From a virus: a DNA stretch of 64,000 nucleotides. Both the position numbers and the translations under genes were made by a program. A model generated the notes under the pieces. The model searched no databases, was not told where the DNA came from, and saw nothing but the letters and a program-made list of their open reading frames with translations. Where the stretch lies: IMG/VR virus record IMGVR_UViG_3300006754_000014, positions 1 to 64,000 of that record. One strand, given 5' to 3'. Below, piece by piece: positions 7,238 through 63,306 of the stretch. Every line of letters begins with the position of its first letter. Position 1 is the first letter of the stretch.

Positions 7238-8122
7238 TCAGTCTGTAAGTTGGAAGTCAATATCAACTTTATCATACAATTCCAAAAACGACTTTTTTGT
7301 TTCATCATCAAAACGATTCAAACAGAATCGAAGTGACTTTTCCTTATCTTTAAAAATTTTATAAGCATTAACAATATGAACCAAACGACGAGTAGAGATA
7401 ATCTCATCTACTCCGCCATCATAGAATGTTTTTCTAATGATGTCACCCCAATCCACAAGACGCTTACAAAACTTAGCGTCATCGAAATGTTTTGAAAGAA
7501 TTCTTTGTTCTATGTTAGGGGTTGGATATTCTTGTTCAAAAGTTACAGGGAATCTTTCAAGGAATGCTTCATTAAGTACATTAGTACCAATGAACCTACC
7601 ATCATCAGATCCTTTACCCTTTGTATTAGCAGTTGCGATAACATTAAAACCTGGAGAAGGTTTAATAAACCTACCAATTTTCTTCAGAAAAACTCCCTTA
7701 CCTTCAAGGATAGATTGGAGACATAGAATCTTATTAGAAGCAAGATCAATCTCATCTAAAAGGAGTGTAGCTCCCCTTTCCAATGCCTCGACAACTGGAC
7801 CGTTATGCCATACAGTGTTACCATCAACAAGGCGAAACCCACCAATAAGGTCATCTTCGTCTGTTTCAATTGTTATGTTGACACGGATTAACTCTTTATT
7901 TAGTTGAGCACACGCTTGTTCGATACTAAACGTTTTACCATTACCCGAAAGACCCGTAAGAAATATAGGGTAGAATAAACGGGACTTAATAATGTTTTTA
8001 ATATCGTTAAACGGACCAAACTTGACGAAGGTATCATCTTTTTCAGGGATAAGATTTTGTAACGGCGTTTCAATTGCAGATTTTTCTGAATGAGTTCGTT
8101 TTATAAGTTTGTGTTCGATCAT
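7238..8122 (-). CDS. cobS: CobS-like MoxR-type AAA+ ATPase
   Basis: AAA+ ATPase of the CobS/MoxR type. CobS is the ATPase of the aerobic cobaltochelatase, and cyanophages carry a CobS-like gene. Walker A is G-L-S-G-N-G-K-T (57-64); Walker B is L-L-L-D-E-I-D (120-126). It has the D-D-L-I-G-G-F-R motif typical of CobS/MoxR proteins, sensor-1 A-T-A-N-T-K, and F-L-E-R-F. 294 aa. The VWA protein encoded just upstream (8452-10557) is its probable partner. A remodelling ATPase acting on a host metal chelatase or other target is the most likely role; cobalamin synthesis itself is not shown. Confidence 0.87.
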   Translation of the reverse strand: MIEHKLIKRTHSEKSAIETPLQNLIPEKDDTFVKFGPFNDIKNIIKSRLFYPIFLTGLSGNGKTFSIEQACAQLNKELIRVNITIETDEDDLIGGFRLVDGNTVWHNGPVVEALERGATLLLDEIDLASNKILCLQSILEGKGVFLKKIGRFIKPSPGFNVIATANTKGKGSDDGRFIGTNVLNEAFLERFPVTFEQEYPTPNIEQRILSKHFDDAKFCKRLVDWGDIIRKTFYDGGVDEIISTRRLVHIVNAYKIFKDKEKSLRFCLNRFDDETKKSFLELYDKVDIDFQLTD

Positions 8123-59631: not shown

Positions 59632-60030
59632 CTAGTTAGCAGATTCCAGTACGAATGTTACATGTTGTCTGCCAACAGCAAGACCAACAATATCATAGAC
59701 AATAGTTACATCAAAAGCATTACTATCTACGTTGGCAGCAACGTCAACATTGGTTACATTAACTCTAGGTTCATATTGTTCTACTGTGTCACGAATTCTT
59801 TGTGACATCATACTTGCTGCAGCAGGACCAACGTTTTCAAAAAGCATTCCGGCAACATCTGATCCAAATGTTGGTTCAAATGGCCGTTCACCAAATTGAG
59901 TTGATACTATATTTCGTACAGATCTACTAACTGCAGTCTCATTTTTAATTACACTAAGGTCTCCTGTTATAGGATGGCGTGTAAAACTGGTAGAAATATC
60001 TTTAAAGGACCGAGAAATAGTGAGAGGCAC
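59632..60030 (-). CDS. 25: gp25, baseplate wedge (lysozyme-like fold)
   Basis: Small wedge protein at the sheath-baseplate junction. 132 aa, exactly the T4 length. Diagnostic segments: I-V-S-T-Q-F-G-E-R-P-F-E-P-T-F-G-S-D-V and I-R-D-T-V-E-Q-Y-E-P-R-V. First gene of the large virion operon, with a perfect TATAAATA late box 24 nt upstream. Confidence 0.95.
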   Translation of the reverse strand: MPLTISRSFKDISTSFTRHPITGDLSVIKNETAVSRSVRNIVSTQFGERPFEPTFGSDVAGMLFENVGPAAASMMSQRIRDTVEQYEPRVNVTNVDVAANVDSNAFDVTIVYDIVGLAVGRQHVTFVLESAN

Positions 60031-60235: not shown

Positions 60236-60405
60236 AGTTCTTCCATTGATACTTCATCAGGACTTGGTGTCCCATTCTCATAGTAATCTTGAGCTAGGTC
60301 CGCAAGTTTAGTTGCGGCCTCTCCCATGTCATTCGTAAGAAATACTATTTCACCACGAACTTTAATTTGATACTGTGGTTCGTCAAATGATTCTTGTTTT
60401 TTCAT
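60232..60405 (-). CDS. Hypothetical acidic protein, 57 aa
   Basis: MKKQESFDEPQYQIKVRGEI start, then F-L-T-N-D-M-G-E-A-A-T-K-L-A-D-L-A-Q-D-Y-Y and an acidic tail. It overlaps the glycosyltransferase gene by 23 nt and the basic 48-aa gene by 4 nt, which supports translation. No function assigned. Confidence 0.68.
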   Translation of the reverse strand: MKKQESFDEPQYQIKVRGEIVFLTNDMGEAATKLADLAQDYYENGTPSPDEVSMEEL

Positions 60406-61153
60406 GTCCTACACGTATACGAGGGTCGCACCAGATTTCAAATCCTTCCTCCTTCGCATCTAGACAGAATGAAACGTCCTCGCCACACATGTCTTGTACT
60501 TTACCAGATTCAAAGACTTGCATCTTAGGAGCAAACCATGGATATTCAAGACTTTCGAAAACACCTTTCTTAATTAATACCCATCCAAACCCTGTGTAAT
60601 CGACAGTAAATGGTTTGCGACGTTTGTCCATTGACTCTACAGTCTCGTGATTCATTACTCCACCGTTCTTGCGGAAGTCGTCTTCCTCTAACCAGTGAGC
60701 AACTGAGGTAGTATGCCCATCTTCTGTTGCATACCATCCGGCAGTGATCTCTCTTTCCTCACCTTCTGCTGGGACAGCAAGATCGCATAATTCCCAAAAC
60801 TTATTTGGATTGAAAATAATATCACTATCAATCCATAGTTGATAATCATATTCTAGTTTTCCATCCCATGGAATCTGTTTTGGCCCTCTTAGTACATTTG
60901 CACCAAGTACTTTACACCTGGCAAAGTTTACCATTGATGAATAATCTTGACTGATTTGAATACTCATTCCGTTCTGAACCATATCAAAACAGAGTTGTAC
61001 AAAATTCTTCAAGAAAATATAAGAACATCCCCTTCCTGGTAAACAGAAGATGATACTCTTACCTCTCATCCTTTCTTTAATAGCTGGGATATCCCACTGT
61101 TCTTCTTTTTTCTTAACAGGAGATTTCGCTTTAACTGTAAATCCTTTAGCCAT
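60383..61153 (-). CDS. Glycosyltransferase (GT-A, family 2-like)
   Basis: 256-aa sugar transferase. After a Lys-rich start it has S-I-I-F-C-L-P-G-R-G-C-S-Y (donor-binding loop) and Q-L-W-I-D-S-D-I-I-F (DxD, Asp109 and Asp111). An acceptor-side segment G-W-V-L-I-K-K-G-V-F and catalytic-acid candidates in C-G-E-D-V-S-F-C-L follow. Soluble. T4-like cyanophages often carry such a gene near the baseplate genes. The acceptor is unknown. A sigma70-like promoter at 61177-61205 probably drives it early. Unrelated at sequence level to the glycosyltransferase at 2073-3008 beyond the shared fold. Confidence 0.82.
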   Translation of the reverse strand: MAKGFTVKAKSPVKKKEEQWDIPAIKERMRGKSIIFCLPGRGCSYIFLKNFVQLCFDMVQNGMSIQISQDYSSMVNFARCKVLGANVLRGPKQIPWDGKLEYDYQLWIDSDIIFNPNKFWELCDLAVPAEGEEREITAGWYATEDGHTTSVAHWLEEDDFRKNGGVMNHETVESMDKRRKPFTVDYTGFGWVLIKKGVFESLEYPWFAPKMQVFESGKVQDMCGEDVSFCLDAKEEGFEIWCDPRIRVGHEKTRII

Positions 61154-62121: not shown

Positions 62122-62358
62122 ATGAACGGTTGGGAAAACTACGAAACTTGGAACGCTTCTCTTTGGATTGGCAACGACGAGTTTTTGTACAACACCGCTA
62201 AGGCATGCGTCAAGTTTTGTCCCGAAGACGAGACCCCATACGTCAAGTTCATCAGATGCATGACGAACGGTGGAATGCCCATCACTGGCGACGGGGTTAA
62301 GTGGGATGATCCTACTATCAACCATGATGAAATGGTTGAGATGATGGTTGAGTTATGA
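62122..62358 (+). CDS. NYETWN-type small protein (DUF7249-like)
   Basis: 78 aa, starting MNGWENYETWNASLWIGNDE, then F-L-Y-N-T-A-K-A-C. The N-Y-E-T-W-N-x-x-L-W-I-G-N-D motif is found in many phage and cyanobacterial small proteins (DUF7249-like, from memory) of unknown function. The C-terminus is acidic (D-D-P-T-I-N-H-D-E-M-V-E-M-M-V-E-L). One of two confident plus-strand genes in the window. Its stop overlaps the start of the HicA-like gene (ATGA), so the two are coupled. It is in the position expected of an antitoxin. Confidence 0.8.
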   Translation: MNGWENYETWNASLWIGNDEFLYNTAKACVKFCPEDETPYVKFIRCMTNGGMPITGDGVKWDDPTINHDEMVEMMVEL

Positions 62359-62528
62359 CCAGTAAGCAACTTACCAAATTTGCTAGGTCGTTGGGTTGGG
62401 TGCTTGCCCGTCATGGTAGCAAGCACCACATTTTCAAACATGAAAATGCCATCAAACTGGTCACCATACCATATCACACCCGCGATCGCGTAGGCAAGCA
62501 AATCAAGAGACAGTTACAGAGCGTCTAG
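62355..62528 (+). CDS. HicA-like mRNA interferase (toxin-type protein)
   Basis: 57-aa protein: MTSKQLTKFARSLGWVLARH, then G-S-K-H-H-I-F-K-H and V-T-I-P-Y-H-T-R-D-R-V-G-K-Q-I-K-R-Q-L. This is the compact HicA double-stranded-RNA-binding-like fold. It has the G-S-x-H-H segment carrying the catalytic His (His24/25) and the V-T-x-P-x-H strand. HicA toxins cleave mRNA and normally pair with HicB; no HicB-like gene is present. It overlaps the upstream gene by 4 nt and is followed by a strong terminator. It could act on host mRNA, or be a toxin held by its unusual partner. Confidence 0.78.
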   Translation: MTSKQLTKFARSLGWVLARHGSKHHIFKHENAIKLVTIPYHTRDRVGKQIKRQLQSV

Positions 62529-62547: not shown

Positions 62548-62572
62548 AAGCACCCTCGAGGGTGCTTTTTTT
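62548..62572 (+). terminator. Strong intrinsic terminator after the HicA-like gene
   Basis: A perfect palindrome AAGCACCCTCGAGGGTGCTT (62548-62567) followed by a T run on the plus strand. It closes the two-gene plus-strand unit. Confidence 0.9.
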
Positions 62573-62647: not shown

Positions 62648-62764
62648 TAAGAGAAGTGCTGCAAGTTTTCCACAGCACTGCCCTATAGCGTATATACTGA
62701 TACCCTGTGGAAAACTTTTTTTCCACAGCATGGACTGCGCTAGTACATAAAAACTCTTCTCTTA
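62648..62764. repeat. Nested inverted repeats around DnaA boxes
   Basis: TAAGAGAAG (62648-62656) and CTTCTCTTA (62756-62764) flank an inner inverted pair of TTTTCCACA boxes (62706-62714 and 62719-62727, 10-bp arms, 4-nt loop). Nested symmetry of this kind suits a protein-binding or replication site. Confidence 0.7.
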
Positions 62765-62818
62765 CCCCTCGCAATCTTATGAGTTAATTATATACTTTTT
62801 CCACAGGATTGTCAAGCG

Positions 62819-62983
62819 TTAAATGTAATAAATCTCATCAGTATTAAAGTCTTCTACTGCTACATTTACCTTGTCAAATTCTTCTAGAGATAATACTTTG
62901 TACCAGTCAATTTCTCGTGGGTTTATATCACCAATTACATCAAGATCTAGCGTAATTCTATACTTTTGTTGTGTGACGTACAT
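62819..62983 (-). CDS. Hypothetical protein, 54 aa
   Basis: MYVTQQKYRITLDLDVIGDI start, then N-P-R-E-I-D-W-Y-K-V-L-S-L-E-E-F-D-K-V-N-V and a short Asp/Glu-rich end. An excellent Shine-Dalgarno (GGAGG, 7 nt spacing) and a near-consensus promoter (63010-63038) make translation very likely. Cytosolic, acidic; family not recognised. Early expression is expected. Confidence 0.75.
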   Translation of the reverse strand: MYVTQQKYRITLDLDVIGDINPREIDWYKVLSLEEFDKVNVAVEDFNTDEIYYI

Positions 62984-63009
62984 GAAAAGAACCTCCAGAA
63001 GACTTTTGT

Positions 63010-63038
63010 ATCATAGTTGTTAACAACTGTTTTGTCAA
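63010..63038 (-). promoter_or_regulatory. Strong sigma70 promoter with palindromic operator
   Basis: TTGACA (63033-63038), 17 nt, TATGAT (63010-63015) on the minus strand. A perfect 14-bp palindrome AGTTGTTAACAACT (63015-63028) lies in the spacer and touches the -10, the classic place for a repressor to block polymerase. Confidence 0.75.
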
Positions 63039-63052
63039 GTACTTATATGTTA

Positions 63053-63306
63053 CAAAATATAATCGCGGATTTGACTTATAAGGAAAGTCATGATAGAATG
63101 CGCGCCAAGATCACAACAACTCCAAGGATTAACACCCTATTTGAGCACTTTATCTCTGGAGGATTAACAGATCTTTTTAGTACATTTGTTTGCCATATAT
63201 TTATGCTCAAATTCCACATAATTACCCCACTTATTAACACCCCTGTGGAAAACTATACAACACGCTGTTATATTAATTAAAGCATTAATAAATGATTTAG
63301 GTATAA
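63053..63306. other. Mostly non-coding region with plus-strand promoter
   Basis: About 250 nt between the small-gene promoter and the next minus-strand gene. It holds a plus-strand sigma70-like promoter and the fifth DnaA box (63244-63252). A plus-strand frame from ATG 63047 or TTG 63017 to 63280 exists, but it lies ahead of or across the promoter and I do not regard it as a gene. Confidence 0.5.
63071..63099 (+). promoter_or_regulatory. Sigma70-like promoter on the plus strand
   Basis: TTGACT (63071-63076), 17 nt, TAGAAT (63094-63099). Both boxes are 5/6. Transcription would start near 63106 and converge with the minus-strand gene at 63307-63528; no convincing reading frame follows. Confidence 0.5.

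Follow-up and report, generated by a model that had tools for sequence, protein, structure and literature searches.

A conserved DnaA-box cluster beside a promoter-like core upstream of gp25 in T4-like cyanophages: a candidate early replication origin

The DnaA-dependent replicons pSC101, F, RK2 and P1 oriR carry DnaA boxes of their host at the origin, together with iterons for a Rep protein that the replicon itself encodes. Clusters of DnaA boxes also form datA-type titration sites, which have no known gene function. Phage T4, to our knowledge, is regarded as DnaA-independent. The T4 origins oriF and oriG follow a minimal plan of approximately 100 bp, consisting of a promoter and an A+T-rich unwinding element primed by an R-loop, and the review that describes this plan does not mention DnaA (PMC3016281). 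Here we describe a cluster of DnaA boxes beside a promoter-like core in a viral genome from IMG/VR, record IMGVR_UViG_3300006754_000014. The record is incomplete, and the window analyzed comprises 64,000 of its 68,684 bases. The presence of gp25, gp6 and the Pfam family Kyano_Gp96 in the record bears out the initial annotation of the virus as a T4-like cyanophage. The open-access literature searched yielded no description of DnaA boxes in cyanophages, and none of an early replication origin of T4-like cyanophages. The locus represents a composite control element, conserved among T4-like cyanophages (Kyanoviridae and kin).

The window contains five exact copies of the 9-mer TTTTCCACA, as the initial annotation had claimed. 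They span 587 bp, and there is no other exact copy in the window; the sixth of the whole record lies at 65634 on the - strand. Boxes 1-4 are referred to as cluster B and box 5 as cluster A:

62666..62674, + strand, DnaA box 1, TTTTCCACA, cluster B, exact match
62706..62714, - strand, DnaA box 2, TTTTCCACA, cluster B, exact match
62719..62727, + strand, DnaA box 3, TTTTCCACA, cluster B, exact match
62797..62805, + strand, DnaA box 4, exact, cluster B, within the 17-bp spacer of promoter P1
63244..63252, - strand, DnaA box 5, exact, cluster A, about 110 bp from element E
63210..63218, + strand, degenerate box-like site AATTCCACA beside box 5, two mismatches, weak evidence

The boxes at 62706 and 62719 form the tight inverted pair that had been described, 4 bp apart, and this inverted spacing is the commonest among the viral contig matches listed. 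Box 2 also pairs with box 1 in a longer inverted repeat, whose 13-nt arms match exactly. The outer 9-mers TAAGAGAAG and CTTCTCTTA are present as reported, but their symmetry about the pair is only approximate, as they are centered on 62706 and the pair on 62716.5, some 10 bp away. Shuffled sequences gave an expectation of 1.34 ± 1.09 copies of TTTTCCACA per 64 kb, against which five copies are only mildly unusual (1 of 100 shuffles). The expectation for 587 bp is about 0.012 boxes versus the five found, which is far beyond chance. Sites with one mismatch are not enriched over the window (26 observed, 29.5 expected), indicating that the signal is the clustering of exact boxes. When the letters of TTTTCCACA were permuted, none of the 400 resulting 9-mers exceeded two copies per 300 bp of the record, compared with four for TTTTCCACA itself. 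The motif is not dense elsewhere in this genome, contrary to one of the refuting observations named in the initial annotation.

The proposal that these are cyanobacterial-type sites is well supported by comparison with the hosts, and we take them to be host DnaA boxes on the strength of the following sequence matches. The origin (oriC) of cyanobacterium L487 contains three tandem copies of TTTTCCACA with 2-bp spacing among TTATCCACA boxes, and one picocyanobacteria-like genome has three exact TTTTCCACA upstream of dnaN. The E. coli-type TTATCCACA variants are likewise mixed among the phage boxes, and replace TTTTCCACA in some phages, such as S-SKS1 and L083. DnaA is present in all ten genomes checked that are presumed picocyanobacterial from their size and the position of dnaN; the smallest cyanobacterial genomes have weaker boxes. 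The cyanobacterial genomes were reached through a scan of contigs for tandem boxes, with many unrelated bacteria among the matches listed. A phage-encoded DnaA was rejected, as a search of the record with the DnaA domain PF00308 returned no match. Separately, an inverted TTTTCCACA pair that does not lie near dnaN recurs in four small cyanobacterial genomes with the same gap of 35 bp (G054:C1:930408-930460, G091:C2:926003-926055, G103:C1:1354585-1354637 and G039:C1:1439850-1439902); it is possible that this pair is a conserved host site that is regulated by DnaA or titrates it.

Twenty genomes of isolated T4-like cyanophages were surveyed, with a cluster defined as at least two exact TTWTCCACA within 60 bp. 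Ten of them have clusters, each 1.6-9 kb upstream of gp25 and none elsewhere in those genomes. In S-PM2, S-RIM32, Syn9 and Sf-CH11, DnaA boxes reach their highest density in the genome approximately 5.3-7.6 kb upstream of gp25, with the site at 19.2 kb in S-PM2 and at 52.6 kb in Syn9; the further isolates are Syn1, Syn19, Syn33, S-ShM2, S-SM2 and S-SKS1. The gene order in the isolates runs from a block of small genes, usually including a 2OG-Fe(II) oxygenase, through the cluster and further small genes to gp25, and the relatives carry the cluster in the same syntenic place as the window. Absence from close relatives, a second refuting observation named in the initial annotation, is thereby not borne out. 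The exact-box cluster is absent from the other ten isolates (S-CAM4, P-SSM2, P-SSM4, P-HM2, P-RSM4, S-RSM4, S-SSM7, S-CRM01, S-PRM1 and S-TIM5), among which are all four phages with recorded Prochlorococcus hosts, P-SSM2, P-SSM4, P-HM2 and P-RSM4, a small number. In S-PM2 (L222:17300-19600) several tRNA genes are annotated, two of them at DnaA boxes. ARAGORN finds none there, and the genes may be mis-annotated; tRNA genes were rejected as the cause of conservation.

Scanning IMG/VR for the inverted box pair returned at least 120 stretches, at least 99 of which share proteins with Kyanoviridae. Among the matches listed, inverted pairs peak at spacings of 4 and 10 bp and tandem pairs at 2-3 and 12-13 bp. 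Some relatives have 8-12 exact boxes, still upstream of phrog_1574-gp25-gp6; in L192 (9575-9890), twelve exact TTTTCCACA are packed into about 330 bp at this place, mostly in tandem with a period of 21-22 bp. In the nearest relative compared at the cluster region, G158, whose DUF7249 is 95% identical, a box pair, A+T-rich DNA and an E-like promoter are arranged as they are here. Dense DnaA-box arrays were also seen at L102:6064-6179 and L180:6969-7101, on viral contigs that share no protein similarity with the five cyanophage genomes used for comparison.

The initial annotation was right about the boxes but overlooked a more telling part of the locus, namely the conserved element E by box 5 and the position of box 4 in a perfect sigma70 promoter:

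62787..62815, - strand, promoter P1, TTGACA-17-TATAAT, 12/12, consensus match only
63010..63038, - strand, promoter P2, TTGACA-17-TATGAT, 11/12, consensus match, directly upstream of the open reading frame (ORF) at 62819-62983
63071..63099, + strand, promoter PE, TTGACT-17-TAGAAT, directed away from gp25, to the interval before box 5
63063..63130, - strand, conserved core, element E (GTTGTTGTGATCTTGGCGCGCATTCTATC...AAGTCAA), nhmmer E=2e-8
63131..63243, no strand, interval from element E to box 5, candidate unwinding stretch, best 30-bp window 80% A+T, weak

The nhmmer model of element E was built from 11 phages, this phage among them. PE is part of element E, and between clusters A and B lie the ORF of phrog_12516, P2 and PE. 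P1 points across boxes 3, 2 and 1 to gp25, and with box 4 in its spacer the locus shows the overlap of a DnaA box with a sigma70 promoter by which DnaA-regulated promoters are recognized. The spacer of P2 coincides exactly with a perfect palindrome, GTTGTTAACAAC, a candidate operator. An Rfam search at the locus found no known RNA element.

Alignment of the isolates revealed a common order of boxes, often an A+T-rich stretch, and then element E (GTTGTTGTCTTAGCRYGC...TGTCAA). Read on the reverse strand, TTGAC[AT] occurs in 54 of 57 cores, either 15-16 or 27 bases away from TTAGC, and this motif is probably the sigma70-like -35 hexamer of a promoter directed at the boxes. Where the distance is 27 bases, as in this phage, a -10 hexamer follows at 17 bp; the shorter form has a weaker -10 (TAAGAC). 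The A+T-richness of the DNA into which the putative promoter leads is variable, in contrast to its conserved -35. A strong downstream forward promoter is found in 33 of the 57 cores, compared with 7% in shuffles. For a non-circular test of the tie between core and boxes, IMG/VR was scanned with core sequences alone. All 19 distinct passing loci, some of which may be close kin, have at least two exact TTWTCCACA within 300 bp, whereas after shuffling of the core-selected regions 0.13 sites are found per 300 bp, with one mismatch allowed. In each of the 50 loci with boxes, the box nearest to the core is 38-170 bp away from it, always on the same side.

Where exact clusters are missing, other sequences may accompany the core. 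In S-PRM1, element E is adjoined by two boxes, of which one is exact and the other near-exact. S-RSM4 (L283, approximately 7659-7800), L051 and L193 have no boxes and instead carry GGTTCTCAATAAG...ATTGA[GT]AATCAAT by an A+T-rich stretch; the second half of this repeat accompanies the core in L068, at a contig end. This inverted repeat is possibly recognized by some other initiator or regulator. Where the boxes would lie, S-CAM4 and L073 carry a further, unrelated sequence, and P-RSM4 has a decayed TGCGGAAAA there. The core is thus the constant part of the element and the boxes its commonest partner.

We estimate a probability of roughly one half that in these phages the locus is an early replication origin that resembles T4 oriF and is assisted by DnaA. 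Here DnaA binding, promoter activity, unwinding and priming are predicted from the sequence, as is origin function itself. Host DnaA, already in the cell at infection, would bind the clustered boxes, and host RNA polymerase would transcribe from the sigma70-type PE in element E to the boxes, across DNA that in many relatives is rich in A+T. Bound DnaA and transcription might jointly open the duplex, and the PE transcript could then prime leading-strand synthesis as at T4 oriF, with later replication driven by recombination as in T4. The DnaA-box cluster is itself a mark of bacterial oriC. In the annotated isolates, the genes immediately upstream of the cluster are mostly in the same orientation as gp25, so PE would transcribe them mainly antisense, which fits a primer better than an mRNA. 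The fixed place, the promoter-like core facing the boxes and the upstream genes mostly opposite to the PE strand favor an origin.

Several results weigh against this assignment. The GC skew, suggested as a check in the initial annotation, gave no origin signature: neither GC- nor TA-skew switches at the cluster in four complete relative genomes. This negative is weak, since the multi-origin, recombination-driven replication of T4 is expected to blur skew. The DnaA-trio motif was not seen in 56 of 57 phage cores, although several host oriC regions contain a DnaA-trio-like CTACTACTA run followed by A+T-rich DNA, as seen by eye. The A+T-richness of the 63131..63243 interval is matched by about 4% of genome windows and is not exceptional in this phage, and the mean A+T enrichment across relatives is modest; the stretch by the boxes is strong in S-PM2 and Sf-CH11, marginal in this phage and absent in S-RIM32. 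Finally, several relatives (S-RSM4, S-CAM4 and P-RSM4) keep the core without exact boxes, and DnaA therefore cannot be universally required.

The variation in the core's partner suggests, tentatively, an early origin built of two modules, an invariant promoter-like core and an initiator part that can be exchanged, which consists of host DnaA boxes in most phages and of the other inverted repeat in some. Early replication of these lytic phages might then depend on, and respond to, the light-controlled DnaA of the host. In Synechococcus elongatus, binding of DnaA to oriC drops in the dark and on a block of photosynthesis (PMC6478999), and a site of this kind could thereby help to explain a light dependence of phage DNA replication. 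The fixed place of the cluster beside the promoter-like core suggests that the virus borrows or taps the replication switch of its host. As a conserved element that would link these abundant marine viruses to the initiator of their host, the locus provides a concrete origin candidate in well-studied phages (S-PM2, Syn9, Syn1 and S-SM2).

The locus is also a divergent promoter block amid small early-type genes, and DnaA might repress or time the divergent P1, P2 and PE of an early-gene block according to the replication state of the host, with no replication start at all. Box 4 in the spacer of the perfect P1 is what such control would look like; in L125, likewise, the spacer of a promoter-like sequence with TTGACA contains a box, and in L182 a box lies just past the start site. 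The replacement of the boxes by another inverted repeat in some phages is also consistent with this explanation, as regulators may be swapped. However, the boxes of most relatives, 38-170 bp from the core, are on the downstream side of PE, which is odd for an operator, and the 8-12 boxes of the large arrays, repeated every 21-22 bp, are more than promoter control usually requires. On balance we regard DnaA-controlled transcription without an origin as the main rival reading and as rather unlikely.

A datA-like decoy, in which the phage copies sequester DnaA and stall host initiation, is improbable. The many boxes per genome copy would increase with phage replication, and the large arrays in some relatives would suit such a role, but titration would be needed in the early phase of infection, and 3-5 boxes per genome are few at that time. 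A decoy needs neither a fixed gene neighborhood nor a promoter-like core, yet both are conserved, and the adjacent promoter and A+T-rich stretch favor an origin or regulatory region over a pure decoy. Titration could, however, be a side effect of origin or promoter function. We consider it very improbable that the 9-mers merely resemble DnaA boxes and are the sites of a phage-encoded protein. The different repeat at the same place in related phages would fit, but the sites match the cyanobacterial box exactly, a host oriC has the same box and spacing, TTATCCACA variants substitute for it (S-SKS1, L083), and the record encodes no DnaA-domain protein. Chance clustering in an A+T-rich genome, for which the mildly high raw count over 64 kb might speak, is refuted by the shuffles, by permuted 9-mers that do not cluster, and by relatives with the cluster at the same place.

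The genes around the locus are as follows:

59632..60030, - strand, gp25 baseplate wedge gene, syntenic marker
60383..61153, - strand, phrog_1574 ORF, syntenic marker in the interval between cluster and gp25
62122..62358, + strand, DUF7249 ORF, syntenic marker
62355..62528, + strand, HicA-like toxin ORF (PF07927)
62548..62567, + strand, terminator-like hairpin 3' of the HicA-like ORF
62819..62983, - strand, 54-aa ORF, phrog_12516 (unknown function), between clusters A and B

The HicA-like ORF directly follows DUF7249, and no HicB antitoxin was noticed alongside. No switch of the transcribed strand was seen near the locus, the flanking genes lying mostly on one strand except DUF7249 and HicA.

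Comparison of the proposed origin with T4 oriF and oriG reveals the same type of phage and a similar plan (PMC3016281), with a putative promoter directed here into a stretch whose A+T-richness varies among relatives. It differs in that T4 oriF uses a MotA-dependent middle promoter, whereas the matches here are to plain sigma70 promoters, and in that transcription switches strands at T4 origins. T4 oriF sits at uvsY and the clusters here upstream of gp25; we take uvsY and gene 25 to be adjacent in T4, where gp25 occupies NC_000866 115461-115739. A single TTTTCCACA just upstream of T4 gp25 (NC_000866:115853-115861) is probably a coincidence. With cyanobacterial oriC, the phage locus shares clustered TTTTCCACA and TTATCCACA and, to an extent that varies among the phages, adjacent A+T-rich DNA, and the tandem spacing of 2 bp is that of L487; it lacks the DnaA-trio run, the dnaN and dnaA neighbors and the skew switch. 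Like the DnaA-dependent replicons, the phage is a foreign replicon with host DnaA boxes at its candidate origin, although no Rep gene was identified in this phage and a T4-type replisome of its own is expected for the family. With datA it has in common a box cluster without known gene function, and it is set apart from datA by its conserved promoter core and its fixed genomic place.
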